NCBI GenBank assembly: GCA_020348925.1
Contig: CP070758.1
Location: 4,330,607-4,374,200 of the forward strand
Origin: Gemmatimonadota bacterium
GTDB lineage: Bacteria > JBHIER01 > G020348925
Length of the DNA: 43,594 bases
Direction: 5' to 3'
The notes under the pieces are model-generated. The model ran no database searches, was not told the origin of the DNA, and saw nothing but the letters and a program-made list of their open reading frames with translations. Shown here piece by piece: positions 3,327-17,493 of this stretch. A program made the position numbers and the translations under genes. Position 1 is the stretch's first letter; each line of letters opens with the position of its first letter.

Positions 3327-3346
3327 CTCCCCTTTTCAAAGGGGAG
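3327..3346. repeat. Short palindrome, REP-like, second copy
   Basis: CTCCCCTTTTCAAAGGGGAG: 9-base arms with a 2-base centre. It is related in layout to 3234-3252 (pyrimidine arm, TTT/AAA core, purine arm). It could also act as a transcription stop, but no U-tract follows on either strand. Confidence 0.6.
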
Positions 3347-3551: not shown

Positions 3552-5012
3552 TTAGGTTTCGCAACTTGCTGTTTCCAAAATAATATTCACAATACACATC
3601 ACATCCAAAATATTCACCTCATCATCATCAAAACAGTCTGCCATAGAAAATTCGGTAAGATTTGGTTTATGTGCATCTAACATAATATTTATAGTGAAGA
3701 TTAAATCAATCACATTCACATCTTCATCTCCATTCACATCGCCTTGTGAGAGAACACTGAATATTCCATCAACAGGCACCGTCAGGAGATGATGGCCCGG
3801 GGGATCCCCTAATTCAGCACCAAAAAAATCCAAGTTATATTCACCAAGTGGTGCATCATCGGCAACATCAAAGTAAATTTCACAAACCGATCCTGTGTCA
3901 GGCCAGATCATTTGTAGATTGTTTCCTAATCTTCCATTCATGGGACCGCCATGGCAGTCCCATGCAACCAAACGAATTCCCTTATCAATGGTAGACCAAC
4001 TGAAACCAATGCAACTCTTAGATCTTTCAGTATGCCTCAGATTAAGTACATTCAAATTGCTCGTATCAAAATAGAGGTCAAAGAAAATTACTGCCAATTG
4101 GGTATCGTTTTCGATATGAACCTCCACCTTGTTCCCTGCACTTCCAGGAAAACCACCTCCATTCATGAAGGTTATCACCCCATGCGGGACCGCAAAGAAA
4201 CCATCAGCACCGGCGGCAGAAATATTATTTCCCGGAGTGTCAGTTAGAACGATGTTGTCAATGCCAATATTATACTCCCCATAGGTAGTACCCTCAGCCA
4301 CAATCAGTATCACATCACAGATAGGGCCACTCCTGAGCCCCAAAACTTCCGGCCCTGTGGTTTTGAACAACCTTATCCCACTACCTATAGCACTCCAACT
4401 GAACTCCCATTGAGCGTAATCCGTAGGCAGAACGTCCACTACTGTCAAAACATCGGTGTCATATTTAAGATTGAATTCACACCCGGAAGCATTCTGATCG
4501 CTCTTCAACTCAATTGGAACTTTCCTTTCCATCCCCCCGCTAATTCCTCCTCTAAATTCGGATGATAGGACAGCATTATTAACAGAAAACACGCCATCCT
4601 CAGCAAGAACAGTGAGAGTGTCAGGATTAATATAGAAATCATAAATTTTGAATGGGTACTCACCAACAGATGCGTTCGCAGCAACATCGATAATGATATT
4701 CGCAAAAATTCCTAATCCGAGGCTACCCCCTGTCTGAAAATAAATCCCATCATCTTTTATCTCCCAATAGCATCTACCCCTCTCACCATACGTTACTTCT
4801 TTTATCTGAAGTACATTTACATCAAATATGATATTAAAGTCAAAATCCCTTATGTACCTCTCATTCCTCAAATATACAGACACCACGTTGTCCGTACTTC
4901 CCGGCCAACCTCCTCCGCCCATAACCTTCAGATAGACATCTTGAGCATGAGCATTAATCACAAAAATGCTCACCAGAAGCCCACCCGAGAAAAGTAAAAA
5001 TTTTCTTGTCAT
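3552..5012 (-). CDS. Secreted protein: three cohesin-like modules plus C-terminal dockerin
   Basis: Extracellular scaffold-type protein, 486 residues. A signal peptide (about 1-23, ending AHAQ) is followed by three cohesin-like beta modules (about 24-145, 148-273, 278-412), each with the series GGxxPGS, a strand FDxxxLxV, then a strand before GEYxLxxxxxxLxD and a final DGxFxV. A linker leads to a dockerin starting at residue 424, with two calcium-loop segments beginning GDVNGDEDVN and DCFDDDEVNILD. Cohesins bind dockerins, so this molecule could both accept and donate a contact. It is the last gene of the trio, 34 bases after its neighbour. The Shine-Dalgarno is weak. Module family is clear from pattern; binding activity is inference. 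No catalytic domain is present. Confidence 0.85.
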   Translation of the reverse strand: MTRKFLLFSGGLLVSIFVINAHAQDVYLKVMGGGGWPGSTDNVVSVYLRNERYIRDFDFNIIFDVNVLQIKEVTYGERGRCYWEIKDDGIYFQTGGSLGLGIFANIIIDVAANASVGEYPFKIYDFYINPDTLTVLAEDGVFSVNNAVLSSEFRGGISGGMERKVPIELKSDQNASGCEFNLKYDTDVLTVVDVLPTDYAQWEFSWSAIGSGIRLFKTTGPEVLGLRSGPICDVILIVAEGTTYGEYNIGIDNIVLTDTPGNNISAAGADGFFAVPHGVITFMNGGGFPGSAGNKVEVHIENDTQLAVIFFDLYFDTSNLNVLNLRHTERSKSCIGFSWSTIDKGIRLVAWDCHGGPMNGRLGNNLQMIWPDTGSVCEIYFDVADDAPLGEYNLDFFGAELGDPPGHHLLTVPVDGIFSVLSQGDVNGDEDVNVIDLIFTINIMLDAHKPNLTEFSMADCFDDDEVNILDVMCIVNIILETASCET

Positions 5013-5046
5013 TTTTCAACTTTCATCTATGGGGTTTTTGCAGGAA

Positions 5047-6525
5047 TCAATTCTCAAGAACTATATTCACAATACACACAACATCCAATATATTGATTTT
5101 ATCATCATCGTTGCAGTCGGCGGCAGCAAATTCGTACACGGTGGGCTCGTAATAGCCTATAATAATATCGACAGTCGTGATGACATCCTCGAAAGAGACG
5201 ACACCATCCCCGTTCACATCTCCCTTCTCAAGAACAACGTGGAAAGTCCCGTTCACAAGAGATATATGCCGAGCAGAACCATAGGTATCTGAATGGACAT
5301 CAACATTGGACAAAAGAAGATAATACTCACCTAAAGGAGCTTCTTTCTTCACATCGAAAAATATATCAGCGATAGGACCTATTCCTGTACCAATTGCACC
5401 AAAAGGCGCCATCACCACACGAAGACCGTTTTCAATTGATCCCCCTTGAAAAATACCGACGTTTCGAGTCCGCTCAGTTCTTTGAACATCTGATACTGAT
5501 AGGTTTGCTTTATCGAAAAGAAGGTCAAACGCAACTGCATTCACATTAAAATCATTAATGAGACCCACCTGTACTAAATTCCCCGAGCTTCCCGGAAATC
5601 CTCGACCTTCTCCCACTCCCATAGACGGCCAATTGATATAGAATTCTCCTTTTTCCGCTATAGATAATACCTCATTTCCTGTGGTATCACGGACGACAAT
5701 ATTGTCAAGGTTCAAATCATATATACCAAACGGAGCCTCTGAAGCAATATCAAAGTATATAAAAGTTATGCGACCATTCCGTATTTCAGGGAAAAATGGA
5801 GCCGCATCTCTCATAGCCACACTTATCCCACCTTCAATAAAATTCCAGTCGAAACGTGAAAAAACTCCTGCATCCCACGATTTTTTTGCATGATTCACTG
5901 AAAAAATCTCAGTATCATAAAGCACATCAAAATCTATCGAAGATGCTTCTACATAACTCGTGACACGTACCGACGCTCTTACTTCTGTATTTCCTGGGCC
6001 ACCCCAATACGTCTTAGGGAAAAATTCAAAGTAGAAATCGTATTCCGGAACAATAAACATTCTGCTGAAATCTGCCAATACGATTTCATTCCCTGACATA
6101 TCTTCCAGTAAAATATTTGTTAAAACTAACTCATGCTCACTTCCTCTTGGAATATCCTCTCTCACCCGAACGGAAACTTTTGCAATATAGCCGTCTCCAG
6201 ATAGTAAAACTGAATCTGAACCGTTGAGATAAACACTTAACCCAGAATCCAAGCTGTCCACATCGACGGACGAAAAAACCTCACCACGCTCGTATCTTTC
6301 TGCTCCGATAACGATTAAGCTTCTCGTATCGAAAAGAAGATCAAATTGAACCGATTTAATTTCAATATTTGCATTCTGCAGCCAGATTCGAATGTCACGC
6401 GAACGGCCTGGAGAAGCGCCTCCTTTCCAAATGTGTAGCAATAATCGCTGCCCTTGAGATTGAGGAATGTTTCCAAATAGTGAGACCAGAAAAATTGCAG
6501 AAAGAAATACAGCTTTCGATTTCAT
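5047..6525 (-). CDS. Secreted protein: three cohesin-like modules plus C-terminal dockerin, paralogue
   Basis: A paralogue of the downstream protein, 492 residues from the ATG at 6525. I chose this ATG because it starts a clean signal peptide (MKSKAVFLSAIFLVSLFG, cleavage near SQGQ); an upstream TTG at 6591 would put 22 polar residues ahead of it. Three cohesin-like modules follow, then a dockerin beginning at residue 435 whose two loops DVNGDGVVSFED and DCNDDDKINILD fit the calcium-binding consensus very well (Asp/Asn at 1, 3, 5 and acidic at 12). The modules repeat the short [ST]ER[ST]-type motif (for example RTERTR) after the FD strand. It lies 100 bases after the large cohesin gene, so co-transcription is likely. 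Ligand unknown. Confidence 0.85.
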   Translation of the reverse strand: MKSKAVFLSAIFLVSLFGNIPQSQGQRLLLHIWKGGASPGRSRDIRIWLQNANIEIKSVQFDLLFDTRSLIVIGAERYERGEVFSSVDVDSLDSGLSVYLNGSDSVLLSGDGYIAKVSVRVREDIPRGSEHELVLTNILLEDMSGNEIVLADFSRMFIVPEYDFYFEFFPKTYWGGPGNTEVRASVRVTSYVEASSIDFDVLYDTEIFSVNHAKKSWDAGVFSRFDWNFIEGGISVAMRDAAPFFPEIRNGRITFIYFDIASEAPFGIYDLNLDNIVVRDTTGNEVLSIAEKGEFYINWPSMGVGEGRGFPGSSGNLVQVGLINDFNVNAVAFDLLFDKANLSVSDVQRTERTRNVGIFQGGSIENGLRVVMAPFGAIGTGIGPIADIFFDVKKEAPLGEYYLLLSNVDVHSDTYGSARHISLVNGTFHVVLEKGDVNGDGVVSFEDVITTVDIIIGYYEPTVYEFAAADCNDDDKINILDVVCIVNIVLEN

Positions 6526-6625
6526 ATTTGAACACCGTTTTGAATGGCAAAATGGTAAAATATAATGTTTCATAGCAACTACTCTTTTCAACCATGAAAA
6601 AAGGTTCCTGACACCTTTTTGATGG

Positions 6626-9600
6626 TCACTTCAAAAGCAACATGCGCTTCGTTTCCGACCAGCGTCCACTATCAATTGACAACCTGTAGAAATAGACTCC
6701 ACAAGGAACCTCATGTCCTCGCTCGTCCCGCCCGTCCCAGCTTACTGTATAGTATCCAGGCTTTTGATGTTTATCCAACAGAGTTTTTACCTCTTGCCCG
6801 AGAATGTTGTATATCTTCATTGTGGTGTGGACGGGTAATCCACTATCTGCTATCTGATATCTGATATCTGTACTGGGATTAAAGGGATTCGGATAATTCT
6901 GCTCAAGGGCAAACTTCTTGGGAAAAATATCGGTTACATCAACCGAAGTTCTGCCCAAAGTGCATTCTTGGTCAGGAATATCCACCGCCCTTAGTTCATA
7001 GGTGTAAAGGCCGCTTATTTCAATGCCGTCGTCACGGAAGCGATAGACCTTCTCTTCAGATTGAGAGGTGGCTTCATAGATTTTAACGAAATTTATCCCC
7101 TGATTTAAACTTCGATGGAGACTGAACCTGCTCAATTCATCACTTCCATTAATGGACCATTCTAAAAAAATTTTTCCAAGTTTATACTCGGCTTTGAATT
7201 GAGACAACTCAACAGCAGTCTCCTCAAGTACAGTGAACCAATTACCCTCAGGAGTTACCGCAAATTCACTTCCTGAGGGATCGGCCAATTTCACATTGGA
7301 CAACTCCATCCAGTACATTCCAGGGGAGGCATAATCGCTAATATTAAACGTAATTCGTGCTACTGGGCCTGTGCCAGCAGGAACAGTAGTACCGATACCC
7401 GTGGCCGCCAATCGGATGCCATTCGCAACTGTGCTGTGCTGAAAAATATTTAAAGATGCGCTCCGCTCTGTCTTCGCTACATCGGTCACTTGCAACGCGT
7501 TTGTATCAAAGCTAAGGTCGAACTGCATTGCTGCGATGCTCGCATCACTATCTAAATTCATTGGTACGATTATATCTGAGCTTCCTGGTGAGCCTGAGGC
7601 CTGGCCTATGCTCAACCTCATTCCACCTGAAATGATAGTGAAAATCCCGCTTTTTGTCCTTGTAGGAATGACAGCTTTTCGGGCATCAAGAAGGGTGACA
7701 TGTGATAGGGCTAAAGGATACGTTCCTCCTGCAGCATCAGATGTAACATCACAAAGCACTTCAACTATTGGTCCCTCACCTGGCTCGATTAAATTACCTT
7801 CATCATCTGAGATAGAAACCTGGATAAGGCCAGGTTCTGTTTCTTGATATTGAATGCTTTCTATATCTATCGTCCTCATTGTTAGGAGAACCTGAGCAAT
7901 CAGCAAAACCGTCTGATCATATTTTAGGTCAAACTCGATGGAAGCAACTCTTTGGCCGTTGAATAGACGAATCGATACAGGGCAATCTTCAGCTCCTATA
8001 AAACCACTTCCATCCAATATATCCAACTCTGTAACAGATACGCTGAATACACCATCTCCCAGACCCATGGGAATTTCATTTCCCGCAGGATCTGTTAACT
8101 TTACATCCTCAAAAGTTATGGGCACGCCGCAGGCTGGTAATCCTTGCGTTATCTCAAAAACGATATCTGCGATAGAGCCGATGCCCGAAGGGATCGATCC
8201 CTCGCTATGCATAACCATAGACACGCCAAATTCCCTCGAAGACCATTGGAAAATGTTTACGACATAAGATCGACTTGTTTTTCGAACTTCTTCCACTTTC
8301 AGTATTGATGTATCGAACACAATGTCCGCCTGTAATGCACTCATTTTGAGAGTATTGGAGAGAATGAGAGGCACAACGCCTTCGAATGAGGATTCTCCCA
8401 TAAAAAGACTATCTCCGAGGGTGGAGAGTATGAATCCACCGTCTTCCAAAGCAACAGGTATCGCCTCGCCGACGATATCCAACACTGAGACGGCGCTCAG
8501 ACTAATTGACAGAATCGAATCTGTCTCAACTGAGATAACTCCGAAACCAAGAGAGAGAATATCTCCGAAACCTTCATCAATGAGCAGTCCATTCACATCG
8601 GAAAGCTGGACGGAGAGAAGCCCTGGCTCCGTTTCCTGAAAAGATACGTCCGAGAATGGAGCTGTTCTCGGTGTTGGTTCTATGCTTAAGGGGATCAGAC
8701 ACTCCGATTCATACTGAGCAACAAAATTGGCCTGGGACAGCAATCCGTCGTTCCACAACGAAATTCCGATCCAATTGGTATCGCTCACAGTTCCGTATGT
8801 TCTACCGACTTTCAAAGTCGGTTCTCCAATCATGACACCACTGCCCAATACCGGAAGAGTGATATGATTGTTTTCCTGATCATCACTGAAAATGTCAATA
8901 GTCCCCGTATATACTCCCATTCTTAGAGGCTCGAAAATGAGAGAAACCTCAATGTCCGATCCTTCTGACAGTGTTTCAGGAAATGCAGGAGAGATCACAC
9001 GAAAGGTCGGATTATCCGATGTCACACTTGTAATAATCAAACTACCCGTTCCAGTATTGATGACTGAAAATGTCTTTTCGTCAGATGTACACATCTGAAC
9101 ATTACCAAAGTCAATTTCAGTAACCGAGAGCTCGATGTGAGGGTCCTTCCCACTTCCTGTAAGACTAACGAATACCGTATCCTCATCAGGGTCATTGCTC
9201 ATTACAGTTAAGATTCCTTGTATTGGTCCAAGAGACGTGGGGGTGAAGACGACACTCACTTGAAGTTGGCTCCCCGGACGAACAGACATCGGAAAGAGAG
9301 GAGAGACGACAGTGAAATCCGAATCGTTTGAGACCACATCAGAAATTGTTAAATCCACCTCCCCTCTGTTGCTTACAGGAAATAACCAGTATGCTGTATC
9401 GGTCAGAGACACCTCCCCGAAATCGTATTCATACGCTGAAAGTTCAATATCGCTTATACCTATCTCGAAATTTCCATCAAAGAGAGTTACATCTACAGAG
9501 GCATCACCAGAATCCAAAACAGTCACATCGGAGAGTTGGAGAGGATACACACCCGAGTTCACTTCCATGGAGACTGTAAAAATGAAATGTGCAATCGAAC

Positions 9601-10351
9601 CGCTACCACAAGAGATGAAAGGCTCTTCATTACTCTGAATAGAAAGCCTGGCATTCCCGGGATCGAGCAGATCCCAGTCGAAATGAGCCAGATCTTGTGT
9701 TCGATCAGTGGGGAGAACATTCGTGAGGGAGAGAGCTGTTGAATCAAAATTGAGGGTGAGTGAGATTTGGGACAATGCTATCTCACTGTAAAGGTTGAGG
9801 AAAACTACATTGCTTTCACTTCCCGGTACTCCAGAGGTTCCAAAAATCCGTAATGCATTTCCTCCCATAACAGTGAACATGCCGTCGTAGGTAATCACGG
9901 GTATTTCATTGGCCGCAGAGTCACCTATATCAACATTTAATAGAACTAAGGGATATTCTCCAGGTAATGCATATTTTTCCACATCAAAGTAAATATCAAC
10001 TATAGATCCGGTACCTGCTATAATTCCAGGCCGACACTTAACAATTGCAAGCTTCAATTGACCTGGATCTGGATCACTCCATTCAAAGATATAAATAAAA
10101 CTCGAGTCAGTTCGTTCAGTAGGTGAAATATCTGAAATCGACAGGACATTCGGATTGAAAGTTAAGTGCAACCCTATACCAGCAACCTCCCCCACTTCAG
10201 AATTATCCAACTCAATTTGGACAACATTATCTTTACTCCCCGGAATTCCAAAACCATCACCAACGGAGAGAACTGCTTGCTGTGCTCTGGTGGGGGAGAT
10301 TGCCAGAGACACAACGAGTATCACCGAAGGTAACGATGCCCTCGAGTTCAT
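6626..10351 (-). CDS. Large surface protein: six cohesin-like modules, two ASH domains, C-terminal sorting domain
   Basis: Secreted, 1241 residues; signal peptide about 1-23 (to PTRAQQ). Order: cohesin-like 1 and 2 (about 24-285), two ASH/HYDIN-type beta domains (about 287-495; repeats of DFGxV, FxVxNxG, VxFxPxxxG, LxGSG), cohesin-like 3-6 (about 496-1035; 3 and 5 are the most divergent and share QETEPGL), a fibronectin-like segment (about 1040-1140), and a C-terminal domain from residue 1146 with NYPNPFNPST, YNILGQEVKTL and WDGRDERGxEVPCGVYFYRL. That last domain resembles FlgD-like / type IX sorting tags, which take proteins to the cell surface. It has no dockerin, so it could be the anchored partner of the two dockerin proteins downstream. 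GGGAGGTG precedes the ATG. Domains clear; ligand unknown. Confidence 0.88.
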   Translation of the reverse strand: MNSRASLPSVILVVSLAISPTRAQQAVLSVGDGFGIPGSKDNVVQIELDNSEVGEVAGIGLHLTFNPNVLSISDISPTERTDSSFIYIFEWSDPDPGQLKLAIVKCRPGIIAGTGSIVDIYFDVEKYALPGEYPLVLLNVDIGDSAANEIPVITYDGMFTVMGGNALRIFGTSGVPGSESNVVFLNLYSEIALSQISLTLNFDSTALSLTNVLPTDRTQDLAHFDWDLLDPGNARLSIQSNEEPFISCGSGSIAHFIFTVSMEVNSGVYPLQLSDVTVLDSGDASVDVTLFDGNFEIGISDIELSAYEYDFGEVSLTDTAYWLFPVSNRGEVDLTISDVVSNDSDFTVVSPLFPMSVRPGSQLQVSVVFTPTSLGPIQGILTVMSNDPDEDTVFVSLTGSGKDPHIELSVTEIDFGNVQMCTSDEKTFSVINTGTGSLIITSVTSDNPTFRVISPAFPETLSEGSDIEVSLIFEPLRMGVYTGTIDIFSDDQENNHITLPVLGSGVMIGEPTLKVGRTYGTVSDTNWIGISLWNDGLLSQANFVAQYESECLIPLSIEPTPRTAPFSDVSFQETEPGLLSVQLSDVNGLLIDEGFGDILSLGFGVISVETDSILSISLSAVSVLDIVGEAIPVALEDGGFILSTLGDSLFMGESSFEGVVPLILSNTLKMSALQADIVFDTSILKVEEVRKTSRSYVVNIFQWSSREFGVSMVMHSEGSIPSGIGSIADIVFEITQGLPACGVPITFEDVKLTDPAGNEIPMGLGDGVFSVSVTELDILDGSGFIGAEDCPVSIRLFNGQRVASIEFDLKYDQTVLLIAQVLLTMRTIDIESIQYQETEPGLIQVSISDDEGNLIEPGEGPIVEVLCDVTSDAAGGTYPLALSHVTLLDARKAVIPTRTKSGIFTIISGGMRLSIGQASGSPGSSDIIVPMNLDSDASIAAMQFDLSFDTNALQVTDVAKTERSASLNIFQHSTVANGIRLAATGIGTTVPAGTGPVARITFNISDYASPGMYWMELSNVKLADPSGSEFAVTPEGNWFTVLEETAVELSQFKAEYKLGKIFLEWSINGSDELSRFSLHRSLNQGINFVKIYEATSQSEEKVYRFRDDGIEISGLYTYELRAVDIPDQECTLGRTSVDVTDIFPKKFALEQNYPNPFNPSTDIRYQIADSGLPVHTTMKIYNILGQEVKTLLDKHQKPGYYTVSWDGRDERGHEVPCGVYFYRLSIDSGRWSETKRMLLLK

Positions 10352-10519: not shown

Positions 10520-10548
10520 AGTATAGTCAAAGGATAACGCCCTGTCAA
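10520..10548 (-). promoter_or_regulatory. Sigma-70 promoter of the cohesin gene trio
   Basis: On the minus strand, TTGACA (10543-10548), a 17-base spacer and TATACT (10520-10525): a full -35 and 5 of 6 at -10. It lies just past the clpB terminator and points at the cohesin genes, with transcription starting near 10513 and a leader of about 160 bases. Confidence 0.8.
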
Positions 10549-10625: not shown

Positions 10626-13265
<2,640 letters not shown>

Positions 13266-13297
13266 TCTCGTAATACCTCCAGTGTATGTCCACAGGT

Positions 13298-13502
13298 AGT
13301 TAGCTCCCTTTGGTCGCTAACTTCTCCAGAGGGTCTCACCGACCCTCTGGCGCTTCGCGATCCTCCGCATACTCGGATCGCTCCGCTGTTACCCTTGAAG
13401 GGGGTCTGCCCCCTTCAAACTACCCCCGCTGTTTGGAAATTTGTAGAACTTCCAAACGGTCAAGGCCGGCGAAAAAAATGGGAGCGTATCCCCCTGCTCC
13501 CA
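13298..13502. repeat. Row of six hairpins between the FmdB gene and clpB
   Basis: Six perfect inverted repeats follow one another: 13298-13322 (7-bp arms, AGTTAGC/GCTAACT), 13326-13350 (10 bp, CCAGAGGGTC/GACCCTCTGG), 13357-13381 (7 bp), 13395-13418 (10 bp, TTGAAGGGGG/CCCCCTTCAA, 4-base loop), 13431-13457 (8 bp) and 13479-13502 (7 bp, TGGGAGC/GCTCCCA). They fill most of the 290-base gap. Either a structured clpB leader RNA or a composite mobile repeat would explain it. No ORF with coding character is present. Confidence 0.75.
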
Positions 13503-13555
13503 ATCTCCTCTTGCCGTTCAGCCGTCTCGGCCATATGGCAGTCGATTTTCCGCGT

Positions 13556-13828
13556 CTATTCTTTTTTCGACTCCGCCTTCTCTTTCATCTCTTTCGTCTC
13601 CCCTTTTGACTCACCCTTGTCGGCCTTCTCGGCCTTCTTGTAGCTTTCGCTCCGGTAGTCAGTGACGTAAAACCCCGATCCTCTGAACAGAAATCCGGCT
13701 CCGCCACTAATCAGCCGATGCACACGCCCCCCGCACTGGGGACATCGGCTCAGGGGTTTTTCAGAGATGTTCTGAAACTCCTCAAACCGGTATTGGCACT
13801 TCTTGCATTTATATTCGTATGTCGGCAT
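13556..13828 (-). CDS. FmdB-family zinc-ribbon protein
   Basis: Small zinc-ribbon protein of the FmdB/CxxC_CxxC_SSSS family, 90 residues. The first 45 residues carry the ribbon MPTYEYKCKKCQYRFE...SRCPQCGG, with two CxxC pairs for one zinc. A glycine-rich stretch GAGFLFRGSGFYVTDYR follows, then a charged K/E-rich tail of about 30 residues, which is normal for the family. AAGGAGG precedes the ATG. It follows the sigma-factor gene by 33 bases. Family members often sit beside stress or sigma-factor genes, but their biochemical job is unknown. Confidence 0.9.
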   Translation of the reverse strand: MPTYEYKCKKCQYRFEEFQNISEKPLSRCPQCGGRVHRLISGGAGFLFRGSGFYVTDYRSESYKKAEKADKGESKGETKEMKEKAESKKE

Positions 13829-13861
13829 ACACGACTTCCTCCTTCAAACACCCGGGAGCCA

Positions 13862-14725
13862 CTATGTGAGATGGCTCTTCAATCTCCGGCTCCGCGATGC
13901 ATGTCTGAGACGGCGAATGGCCCTGACCTTGATCTGTCTGGCCCGTTCTCTGGAGACACCGTATTTGTCGCCGATCTCTTTCAGAGTGTATGTCTTGTTC
14001 GTTCCAATTCCAAAATAGAGTCTGAGCGTTTCCGCCTCTCGGGGCGTCAGGGTCTTCAATGCTTCATTGATGGCTTTGAGTCGAGACTCCGAGAGAAGAT
14101 CCGTATCCGGGGCCAGCTGGCCCTCGTCCTCGAGAACCTCATGCAGATCTCGATCCCCATCACTGGGAAAAGGCGCATCCATGGAAGCATGTTTCGAAGA
14201 GAGGCTGAGTGTCTCCAGCACCTCTCCGTCGCCCATCTCCAAATGCTGGGCAATCTCCACTGCAGTCGGCGGCCGCTCCAGCTCTTGCTCGAGAGCACCG
14301 GATATCTTCCCAATCTTATGGAGTGCATTAATGCGGTTGATGGGAAGACGGACAACCCGCGTCTGATCCGCCAGGGCCTGGGTAATGGCCTGCCGGATCC
14401 ACCAGACAGCATAGGAAATGAATTTAAACCCTTTGGTCTCATCGAACTTCTTCGCTGCCTTAATAAGACCGAGATTTCCCTCGTTGATGAGATCCAAGAG
14501 CGGCAATCCCTGCCCCTTGTATTCAACCGCGACGCTCACGACAAAACGGAGGTTCGATTTGACCAATGTGTCGAGGGCGTCCTGCTTACCCTTCCGTATC
14601 TTCTTCGCCAACTGAACCTCCTGCTCGGCCGTCAGCAGTGGAATGTTGCTGATCTCTTTCAAATAGAGCGCCAGGTGCTCATCTTCGACGGACAACGGTC
14701 CTTTTCTGTCAGAAAAATCTGCCAT
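13862..14725 (-). CDS. rpoD: RNA polymerase sigma factor, primary (RpoD/SigA) type
   Basis: Sigma-70 family factor, 287 residues, the size of primary sigma factors in Bacteroidetes, which lack region 1.1. Region 1.2 (about 13-45, DEHLALYLKEISNIPLLTAEQE) is present, which points to group 1 or 2. Region 2 has NLRFVVSVA, LLDLINEGNLGLIKAAKKFD and FISYAVWWIRQAI, close to the Bacteroidetes RpoD wording. Region 3 follows, then region 4.2 with YTLKEIGDKYGVSRERARQIK and a SRSRRLKSHL end. AAGGAGG lies upstream. It sits 54 bases after dnaK and before fmdB-clpB, so part of its expression could follow heat stress. Whether it is the housekeeping factor or a close paralogue cannot be settled here. Confidence 0.85.
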   Translation of the reverse strand: MADFSDRKGPLSVEDEHLALYLKEISNIPLLTAEQEVQLAKKIRKGKQDALDTLVKSNLRFVVSVAVEYKGQGLPLLDLINEGNLGLIKAAKKFDETKGFKFISYAVWWIRQAITQALADQTRVVRLPINRINALHKIGKISGALEQELERPPTAVEIAQHLEMGDGEVLETLSLSSKHASMDAPFPSDGDRDLHEVLEDEGQLAPDTDLLSESRLKAINEALKTLTPREAETLRLYFGIGTNKTYTLKEIGDKYGVSRERARQIKVRAIRRLRHASRSRRLKSHLT

Positions 14726-14759
14726 CTCAGCACTCGCCTCCTTGACTGTGCGAATTATT

Positions 14760-14776
14760 CGACTACTTTGTAGTCG
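14760..14776 (-). other. Hairpin between dnaK and the sigma-factor gene
   Basis: CGACTAC-TTT-GTAGTCG, perfect 7-bp arms, directly after the dnaK stop and ahead of the sigma-factor Shine-Dalgarno. Without a U-tract it is more likely an RNA-processing or stability element, or a weak stop, than a full terminator. Confidence 0.5.
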
Positions 14777-14779
14777 ATA

Positions 14780-16696
14780 TTAATCGACAACTTCGTAATC
14801 GGCCTCCACGGCCGCTTCATCAGCTCCCTCAGTCCCTTTTCTCTTCTCCTTGGGCTCCTCGGTACGGGGACTCCCAGCCTGAGCCTGTTGTTGTGCGGTG
14901 GTCTGTTGATAGAGAGTGGCAGCGGCTTGATGCCAGATCTGAGTGAGGGCTTCGGTCGCCGACTTGATCTCGTCTCCATTGTCGACCTTGATAGCTTCCT
15001 TGACTCGGTTCACAGCAGCTTCAACTTTGGCCTTCGTGTCCGCATCGAGTTTGTCGCCCATCTCTTTGAGGTTCTTTTCTGTCTCGTACACCATTTGATC
15101 GGCCCTATTCTTGACGTCAATCGTCTCTCGACGTTTTTTATCCTCATCGGCATGAGACTCGGCATCCTTCACCATCTTATCGATCTCCTGATCGGTTAAA
15201 CCGCTGGAAGCCTCAATACGGATGGACTGCTCTTTGCCGGTCGCCTTGTCCTTGGCGGACACGTTCAGGATACCATTGGCATCGATGTCGAAAGCTACCT
15301 CAATCTGCGGTATCCCCCTCGGTGCGGGTGGAATACCGTCGAGATGGAACCGGCCGATGGTCCGGTTATCGATGGCCATTTCTCGCTCACCCTGGAGAAC
15401 ATGAATTTCTACAGAGGTCTGACTGTCGGCTGCTGTGGTAAAGATCTCGCCCTTTTTGGTCGGGATGGTCGTATTCCGCTGAATGAGTTTTGTGCACACG
15501 CCACCCAGGGTCTCAATTCCCAGAGAGAGAGGTGTCACATCCAGCAGGAGCACATCCTTCACCTCGCCGGCCAGGACGCCCGCCTGAATGGCGGCACCGA
15601 CGGCCACGACTTCATCCGGATTCACCCCTTTATGAGGATCCTTGCCAAACAACGTTTTCACAGTCTCCTGCACCTTCGGAATCCGCGTCGATCCGCCGAC
15701 AAGGATCACCTCATCGATGTCCTTCGGCTCCAGCCCGGCATCCTTCAGGGCCTGCTGACACGGTCCCACTGTCCTGTCAATGAGATCGTCGATCAACTGC
15801 TCCAACTTGGCCCTGGTGAGGGAGAGGTTCAGGTGCTTCGGGCCGCTGGCGTCAGCCGTAATAAAGGGGAGATTGATCTCCGTCTGGGATGTGGACGACA
15901 GCTCACATTTGGCCTTTTCGGCCGCCTCCTTCAAGCGCTGTAAAGCCATGGGATCGGTCCGAAGATTGATTCCCTCCTGCTTTTTGAACTCGTCACACAG
16001 CCAGTCGATAATCCGCTGGTCGAAATCATCTCCGCCCAAGTGCGTATCTCCATTGGTCGACTTCACTTCAAAAACACCCTCGCCCAATTCCAATATGGAA
16101 ATATCAAAAGTTCCGCCACCCAGGTCAAAGACGGCGATCTTCTCGTTGCTCTTCTTGTCGAGACCATAGGCCAGGGATGCCGCCGTCGGCTCGTTGATGA
16201 TGCGGAGCACCTCGAGACCGGCGATTCGCCCGGCGTCCTTCGTCGCCTGACGCTGGCTGTCGTTGAAGTACGCCGGTACCGTAATCACCGCCTGTGTGAC
16301 TTTTTGGCCAAGGTAATCCTCGGCCGTCTGCTTCATCTTCTGTAGAACCATGGCCGATATCTCAGGCGGTGTGTATTTCTTGTCCTCGATCTCCACGGTG
16401 GCCAAATCATTCGTGCCGCTTACTACTTTAAAGGGAACGGTCTTCATCTCCTGACCGACTTCACTATAGCGACGACCCATAAACCGCTTGATGGAAAAGA
16501 CCGTATTTTGCGGATTTGTGATGGCCTGCCGCTTTGCCACCTGCCCCACATGCCGCTCCCCGGACTTGGTAAAGGCAACCACCGACGGTGTCGTCCGGCT
16601 CCCCTCTGAGCTGGGGATAACGACCGGATCACCGCCTTCCATGACGGCCACACAGGAGTTCGTCGTTCCTAAATCTATGCCAATTACTTTTGCCAT
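14780..16696 (-). CDS. dnaK: Chaperone DnaK (Hsp70)
   Basis: Cytoplasmic Hsp70, 638 residues, full length. The nucleotide-binding domain starts with [18 protein letters not shown] and has [45 protein letters not shown] and [15 protein letters not shown]. The substrate-binding domain starts near [14 protein letters not shown] and the lid ends in the usual EVVD. GGGGG precedes the ATG. It lies between hsp20 and the sigma-factor gene. Neither dnaJ nor grpE is in the window, which differs from the common grpE-dnaK-dnaJ order. A 12-bp stem precedes it; I find no CIRCE box for HrcA. Confidence 0.98.
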
Positions 16697-16728
16697 TTTA
16701 TTTGTACCCCCTTACGTGTCAAATAAGA

Positions 16729-16762
16729 GTTGGCGAAGGGCGTAAAAGTTCCCTTCGCCAAC
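16729..16762 (-). other. Long intercistronic hairpin between hsp20 and dnaK
   Basis: GTTGGCGAAGGG and CCCTTCGCCAAC form a perfect 12-bp stem with a 10-base loop, 29 bases after the hsp20 stop and 32 before dnaK. On the minus strand it is followed by TCTTATTTG, a poor U-tract, so it may terminate part of the transcripts or set different hsp20 and dnaK levels. Confidence 0.6.
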
Positions 16763-16791
16763 CGTACACTTTCATACCGTGTTGAGAATGT

Positions 16792-17238
16792 CTACTTCAC
16801 CTCAACAGCAACTTCCTTCGGCTTCACCTCTTCGGCTTTGGGGAGGGTGATTTTCAGAACTCCGTTCTCGTATTTTGCCGAAGCTTTATCAGCCACAACC
16901 AGAGTCGGAAGTGCAAAGGTTCTGGCGAATGAACCGTAGCTGCGTTCAACACTGTGATAGTCCGCCTCCTTTACCTCCTTCTCCTGCTTCTTCTCGCCCT
17001 TCAGGGTCAATATGTTGTCCTTGATGGTCACGTGGATGTCTTTCTGCTCCATTCCGGGGACTTCGGCCTCCACGACAACTTCATGGTCCGTCTCATGAAC
17101 ATCGACATCCGGATTCCACATTCGGTCCCCAAGATCCCGCCGTGCCGGAAATCTCTGAATAAAATCTTCAAAAAGACGGTCCATTTCATCCCGGAACTGG
17201 AAGACGTCTCTCGCCGGGCGCCATCGTACTAACGTCAT
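16792..17238 (-). CDS. Small heat-shock protein Hsp20
   Basis: Alpha-crystallin type holdase that keeps unfolding proteins soluble for DnaK/ClpB. It has 148 residues from the ATG at 17238, chosen because AAGGAGGTGA stands at ideal distance and the product then begins MTLVRWRPARDVFQFRDEMDRLF as in the family. An upstream in-frame start would add 34 residues that look non-coding. The alpha-crystallin domain runs about 45-138 (NPDVDVHETDHEVVVEAEVPGM, LTLKGEKKQ, and the closing A-x-x-x-N-G-V-L-x-I-x-x-P, seen as AKYENGVLKITLPK). First gene of the stress cluster, with a candidate sigma-54 promoter upstream. Confidence 0.95.
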   Translation of the reverse strand: MTLVRWRPARDVFQFRDEMDRLFEDFIQRFPARRDLGDRMWNPDVDVHETDHEVVVEAEVPGMEQKDIHVTIKDNILTLKGEKKQEKEVKEADYHSVERSYGSFARTFALPTLVVADKASAKYENGVLKITLPKAEEVKPKEVAVEVK

Positions 17239-17309
17239 TTTTGTCACCTCCTTCAGTATGTTCGTATCGTAACTTGCGTCTTTTTTCGCGCGTTGCACTC
17301 TGGTATATC

Positions 17310-17324
17310 GCAATTTTTGTGCCA
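17310..17324 (-). promoter_or_regulatory. Candidate sigma-54 (-24/-12) promoter of hsp20
   Basis: On the minus strand TGGCACAAAAATTGC matches the sigma-54 consensus TGGCAC-N5-TTGC with the required GG-N10-GC spacing. It points to hsp20 and would give a leader of about 60 bases. Confidence 0.6.
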
Positions 17325-17493
17325 AAAACCAAATGACCAAAATGCATCATAACTGAAAGAGGCCTTTTACTTTTTATTCTTAGAAATTACAATAGCTTAC
17401 AAATTTCAACGATATCCTTCCAGAAAAGTGGTGTGTAATATACGAAAATAAAATTGCGATGTCAAGCTGACAATGAAATTTATTTATTTGTGC

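Follow-up and report, generated by a model that had tools for sequence, protein, structure and literature searches.

The window, the whole stretch of 43,594 nucleotides of Gemmatimonadota DNA analysed here, carries on its minus strand three neighbouring genes for an anchoring scaffoldin (6626..10351; 1241 aa) and two adaptor scaffoldins, A (5047..6591; 514 aa) and B (3552..5012; 486 aa). A promoter-like site (TTGACA-17-TATACT; 10520..10548, minus strand; 11 of 12 consensus bases) precedes the scaffoldin gene, and a terminator-like hairpin with an 8-bp stem and a T-rich tail (3327..3346, minus strand) follows the adaptor B gene; both are consensus matches only, and their placement is consistent with a single transcription unit. 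The TTG start of adaptor A at 6591 probably lies too far upstream; the ATG at 6525 is favoured as the real start because the predicted signal peptide begins there.

The locus is flanked by clpB on one side and a PHP-domain (EndoQ-like) gene on the other. Immediately upstream of the scaffold genes lies a run of chaperone genes (clpB, dnaK and an Hsp20 gene; 10626-17340). The nearest records of the EndoQ-like gene come from Latescibacterota (66%) and Zixibacteria (63%); a literature search for dockerins in Latescibacteria or Zixibacteria returned nothing. Elsewhere in the window, a 172-aa ORF with a CHAT (caspase-like) domain (141-659) aligns to the C-terminal part of the profile only and may represent the terminal portion of a longer or disrupted gene.

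The scaffoldin opens with a predicted signal peptide and contains six cohesins at approximately residues 43-142, 173-280, 527-624, 660-754, 791-889 and 919-1024 (own-genome HMM positions count from the preceding stop, +17). Two ASH/choice-of-anchor-D domains occupy approximately residues 310-500 (NCBIfam, 99 bits; cut-off 45), and a type IX secretion system (T9SS) sorting tag with the motif NYPNPFNP spans approximately residues 1149-1241 (TIGR04183, 28.1 bits; cut-off 23). Each adaptor consists of three cohesins and a C-terminal dockerin. The Pfam/NCBIfam profiles and own-genome HMMs bear out the preliminary description, which had read six cohesin-like modules, two ASH domains and a C-terminal sorting domain in the large protein and three cohesins plus a dockerin in each of the other two; its list of proposed tests named nine cohesins, and the locus total is 12 (6 + 3 + 3), with 2 dockerins.

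The HMM searches it had proposed find the Pfam Cohesin family (PF00963; cut-off 24.1) in all three proteins, at 132 bits in the scaffoldin, 32.1 in adaptor A and 46.9 in adaptor B, and each of the 12 cohesins is clear with own-genome HMMs (E 1e-6 to 1e-26). For Dockerin_1 (PF00404; cut-off 22.9), adaptor B scores 24.2 bits and adaptor A 22.0, slightly under the cut-off; the own-genome dockerin HMM gives 8e-16 and 2e-17, respectively. Both dockerins retain the loop-1 aspartates (1, 5 and 12), and their two calcium-binding loops in about 57 residues, together with the profile scores, place them by sequence among type I dockerins. Pfam finds no enzyme domain in any of the three proteins, and CBM families are absent among the Pfam matches of the window scaffoldin.

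Structure prediction, likewise proposed earlier, was run with AlphaFold2 on adaptor B and scaffoldin cohesin-6. All three adaptor B cohesins (pLDDT ~80) and cohesin-6 (pLDDT ~95) are modelled as beta-sandwiches, and a fold search matches them to solved cohesins with TM-scores of 0.75-0.82, the best single-domain PDB matches being cohesins of Clostridium, Acetivibrio and Archaeoglobus. For the cohesins, phmmer comparison of the window proteins with PDB sequences yielded no useful match; the fold search succeeded. Intramolecular docking was sought in a whole-adaptor run, which was set aside: the alignment of three sequences was too shallow and the adaptor B dockerin reached only pLDDT ~35. The scaffoldin sorting tag was likewise poorly modelled. 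Profile scores above the Pfam cut-off and a predicted jelly-roll beta-sandwich fold identify the window cohesins as real cohesins, and sequence features identify the dockerins as real dockerins.

Modules, tags and cargo across the genome

The genome is a single contig of 5.04 Mb, in which 116 stretches around matches were examined, about 2.0 Mb or 40% of the genome. Pfam's curated cut-offs give 73 cohesins and, among the matches listed, 150 dockerin places, all over the cut-off. In the examined 40%, own-genome HMMs give 251 dockerins in 242 proteins and 151 cohesins in 89 proteins (227 and 135 at a stricter E<1e-8), counts that are lower bounds for the whole genome, the cohesin total depending on taking the own-genome model over the Pfam cut-off. 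The same 40% holds 189 sorting tags. Among 115 other genomes, none exceeds 13 cohesins (E<=1e-3) or 19 dockerins (E<=1e-5; up to 50 candidates scored in each). A scan of named genomes with the window scaffoldin as query found no relative.

Motif-based counting of dockerins has a pitfall in this genome. Evenly spaced arrays of the dockerin motif GGNGAYGTNAAYGGNGAY are FG-GAP-type beta-propeller repeats and not dockerins. GDVNGDG arrays of this type, which mimic dockerin loops, lie at contig positions 1445768-1446397, 1074421-1075287, 474793-476166 and 4791171-4792025, so a figure of 525 motif-based dockerin candidates is too high.

The modules are combined in several ways in the examined 40%. 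Cohesins occur with a sorting tag in 68 proteins (67 besides the window scaffoldin, which has the highest cohesin number of all proteins sampled), and with a dockerin and no tag in 14. Dockerin, cohesin and tag stand together in 35 proteins, a chain that is a possible self-linking unit; one example (contig 4328075-4330666) stands just past the window's left end. Pure adaptors of three cohesins and a dockerin number three among the proteins sampled, the window pair and a further one at 73 kb. A dockerin with a T9SS tag about 60 residues further on is found in 56 proteins, for example at contig 4870291-4870854; their C-terminus lies about 140 residues past the dockerin. In dockerin-only proteins, mostly about 8 residues separate the dockerin from the C-terminus. 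The sample includes 137 dockerin proteins with neither T9SS tag nor cohesins, and a hydropathy heuristic finds a signal-like hydrophobic N-terminus in 81% of dockerin-only proteins vs 34% of other ORFs.

For 194 dockerin proteins, cargo was assessed by Pfam on the region ahead of whichever module, dockerin or cohesin, comes first, tallying the 25 most frequent families per batch, which makes both the peptidase and the glycosidase figures minima. Peptidase domains number at least 30, with at least 8 M28, 5 M14, 5 M1, 5 C25, 4 S8, 2 C1 and 1 M64; glycoside hydrolases number at least 4 (GH13, GH31, GH57 and GH99, one each among the families listed). Non-catalytic modules, including LamG, FG-GAP and PKD, are abundant.

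Evidence for a T9SS consists of two components, the translocon SprA (708 bits) and the sortase PorU (738 bits). The scaffoldin tag, scoring above its cut-off in a genome with these components, qualifies as a type A sorting domain. A GspK-like type II secretion match at contig 165508-165654 is weak (20.9 bits; cut-off 24.2). With the modules identified by sequence, and the cohesins by fold as well, the sorting tag in place and SprA and PorU encoded, an anchored scaffold with dockable adaptors is a reasonable prediction.

A predicted surface network and its alternatives

The preferred reading, to which we assign a probability of roughly 0.68, is that the products of the three genes serve as scaffolding in a large, T9SS-anchored, peptidase-rich cohesin-dockerin network at the cell surface. 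It builds on what the computation shows, namely modules and tag, T9SS genes, the inventory of the genome and its peptidase content; export, binding, docking partners and substrate are what we infer from them. The scaffoldin would leave the cell through the T9SS and be fixed to the outer surface by its sorting tag, displaying six cohesin sockets. The adaptors would be secreted, and their dockerins would plug into a cohesin on the scaffoldin or on any of the 67 other tagged cohesin proteins. Each docked adaptor would add three further sockets; with one adaptor in each of the six, a scaffoldin would gain up to 18 more. These sockets would recruit hundreds of secreted dockerin proteins, peptidases foremost, and also lectin-like, beta-propeller and PKD modules. 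The outcome would be a multi-enzyme digestion layer held at the surface, following a cellulosome-like logic and directed chiefly at protein. Against this reading stand the 56 dockerin-plus-tag proteins, which go beyond a simple scheme of anchor and cargo, and the cohesins directly before a tag could be mere Ig-like spacers.

In a rival reading, the adaptors would bind the scaffoldin and one another to build a non-enzymatic surface polymer that stands apart from the other dockerin proteins; the preliminary description had considered such a purely structural or adhesive layer possible. Its observation of no glycosidase in the window holds for the scanned window ORFs, and the three proteins themselves lack enzyme domains and could chain, since the adaptors carry both module types; the step from there to a purely structural layer fails genome-wide. 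A genome full of dockerin enzymes had been named in advance as the finding that would count against it, and at least 242 proteins with a dockerin in the examined 40%, many of them with peptidase domains, largely amount to that, with peptidases replacing glycosidases. These hundreds of dockerin proteins also need cohesins, and the window scaffoldin is the richest in cohesins of the proteins sampled. The structural layer was dropped as the main reading on the genome census and the peptidase cargo, and we regard it as unlikely.

Recognition residues bear on the same question. Across 230 dockerins, the calcium-binding positions are nearly invariant. The residues at positions 10-11 of each loop, a pair that determines recognition in classical type I dockerins, are here hydrophobic, mostly VL or IL, in 209 of the 230 for loop 1 and 216 for loop 2. 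The window adaptor dockerins have the genome-wide IL pair in loop 2 and, instead of the usual pair, FE and VI in loop 1, and they belong to a small subgroup (11 of 230) marked by FE or VI in loop 1 and a Cys in the second helix. A private specificity is conceivable for such a subgroup: the departure in loop 1 means that the adaptors may dock solely to a special cohesin. The IL pair kept in loop 2 speaks against that separation, and with both loops considered the window adaptors may bind ordinary cohesins as well as a special one. A clean split between enzyme-type and scaffold-type dockerins was not seen; protein context predicts the label in part, 147 of 230 nearest neighbours sharing it (shuffle mean 91, maximum 114).

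The nearest adaptor paralogue also argues against a separate, enzyme-free layer. This three-cohesin adaptor (contig 73099-74649), 39% identical to window adaptor B over its length, stands in a paralogous cluster (contig 65464-82721) with two subtilisin-dockerin-cohesin-tag genes, one on each side of it, and several dockerin-only genes. Of the two subtilase domains, one is identified by Pfam scan and the other is read from the sequence. Two of the dockerin-only genes in this cluster contain LVIVD repeats.

Rather improbable is the view that most of the cohesin-like domains are generic Ig-like spacers within T9SS cargo, with dockerins that bind elsewhere or inside the same chain, so that a large complex never forms. 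The 35 dockerin-cohesin-tag proteins invite intramolecular pairing, and 9 of 20 dockerin-bearing relatives lack a cohesin match at the threshold used. The strong cohesin scores and the fold match to functional cohesins count against spacers, as do the intact calcium-binding loops and the co-occurrence of the two families across the 115 other genomes (11 genomes, about 3.5 expected, p = 2e-5).

An ordinary polysaccharide-degrading cellulosome in a new phylum is very improbable, for although the modules and scaffold logic are the same and four glycoside hydrolase families appear in the dockerin set, peptidases exceed glycosidases by at least 30 to 4 among the families listed and no GH9 cellulase was found in the genome, with controls positive in two genomes, nor any GH48, a weaker result because no control genome gave a match. 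The genome does combine a multi-cohesin scaffoldin with dockerin-bearing enzymes. The system is cellulosome-like in its predicted working, yet the name is not apt because the core cellulases GH9 and GH48 and a cellulose-binding module on the window scaffoldin were not found, and the host, an uncultured bacterium, seems not to be built for cellulose.

The dockerin might serve as a sorting signal in trans: inside the periplasm, the 137 untagged, cohesin-free proteins would attach to tagged cohesin proteins and be co-exported with them through the T9SS. We hold this to be a speculative idea with a low chance of being right; if true, docking rather than a tag of their own would route dockerin proteins to the surface.

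Known systems and significance

Cohesin-dockerin assembly is known chiefly from Gram-positive cellulose degraders. The closest precedent in kind is the smaller cellulosome-like complex of Ca. Stygibacter (Cloacimonadota), described with a single scaffoldin of 3,755 aa that bears CBM2/CBM3 and with a small number of dockerin enzymes, its T9SS-tagged scaffoldin and dockerin peptidases having been inferred from genomes alone (PMC8542988). Both systems share a tandem-cohesin scaffoldin with a T9SS-type C-terminal domain, and dockerins on S8 and gingipain-like C25 peptidases and a few glycosidases (PMC8542988). Unlike Ca. Stygibacter, the present genome, from another lineage, has sorting tags on tens of cohesin proteins, dockerins on hundreds of proteins, and trivalent cohesin-dockerin adaptors as separate proteins.

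In size, the comparison is with Pseudobacteroides cellulosolvens, in which 31 scaffoldins carry 78 cohesins, alongside 212 dockerin ORFs and 71 dockerin-associated putative peptidases (PMC5590126). Its very large inventory, scaffoldins with both module types and peptidase-dockerin proteins all recur here (PMC5590126), and its 78 cohesins and 212 dockerins are exceeded when own-genome HMMs are used, whereas by Pfam cut-offs the totals stay at 73 cohesins and, among the matches listed, 150 dockerins. That organism, however, is clostridial and anchors by SLH or cell-surface binding rather than by a T9SS tag, and its dockerin proteins are mostly counted as carbohydrate-active (PMC5590126), whereas peptidases outnumber glycosidases here among the families listed.

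As in the adaptor scaffoldins represented by the Acetivibrio cellulolyticus cohesin dyad (PDB 3l8q), cohesins combined with a dockerin would multiply docking sites; the window adaptor matches that dyad in predicted fold, although sequence identity is only ~15%. Use of the same modules on targets other than cellulose is described for the mucinolysome of Limousia, in another host and with other cargo, the consulted part of that source making no mention of a T9SS tag (PMC12997984). It is also described for ANME archaeal proteins that combine a single dockerin with as many as five cohesins, where host and cargo again differ and the T9SS tag goes unmentioned in the portion of the source available (PMC9012536).

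The kind of system is thus already known from Ca. Stygibacter and the Pseudobacteroides peptidase-dockerins. The novelty lies in the scale reached within a single genome, in the lineage and in how modules are combined, namely in separate trivalent adaptors and many single-chain proteins with dockerin, cohesin and T9SS tag. A T9SS lineage appears to have one of the largest cohesin-dockerin inventories found, tag-anchored and peptidase-rich. It offers a system for studying how partners are chosen among hundreds of dockerins that mostly share their recognition residues, and by what route proteins without a tag get across the outer membrane.
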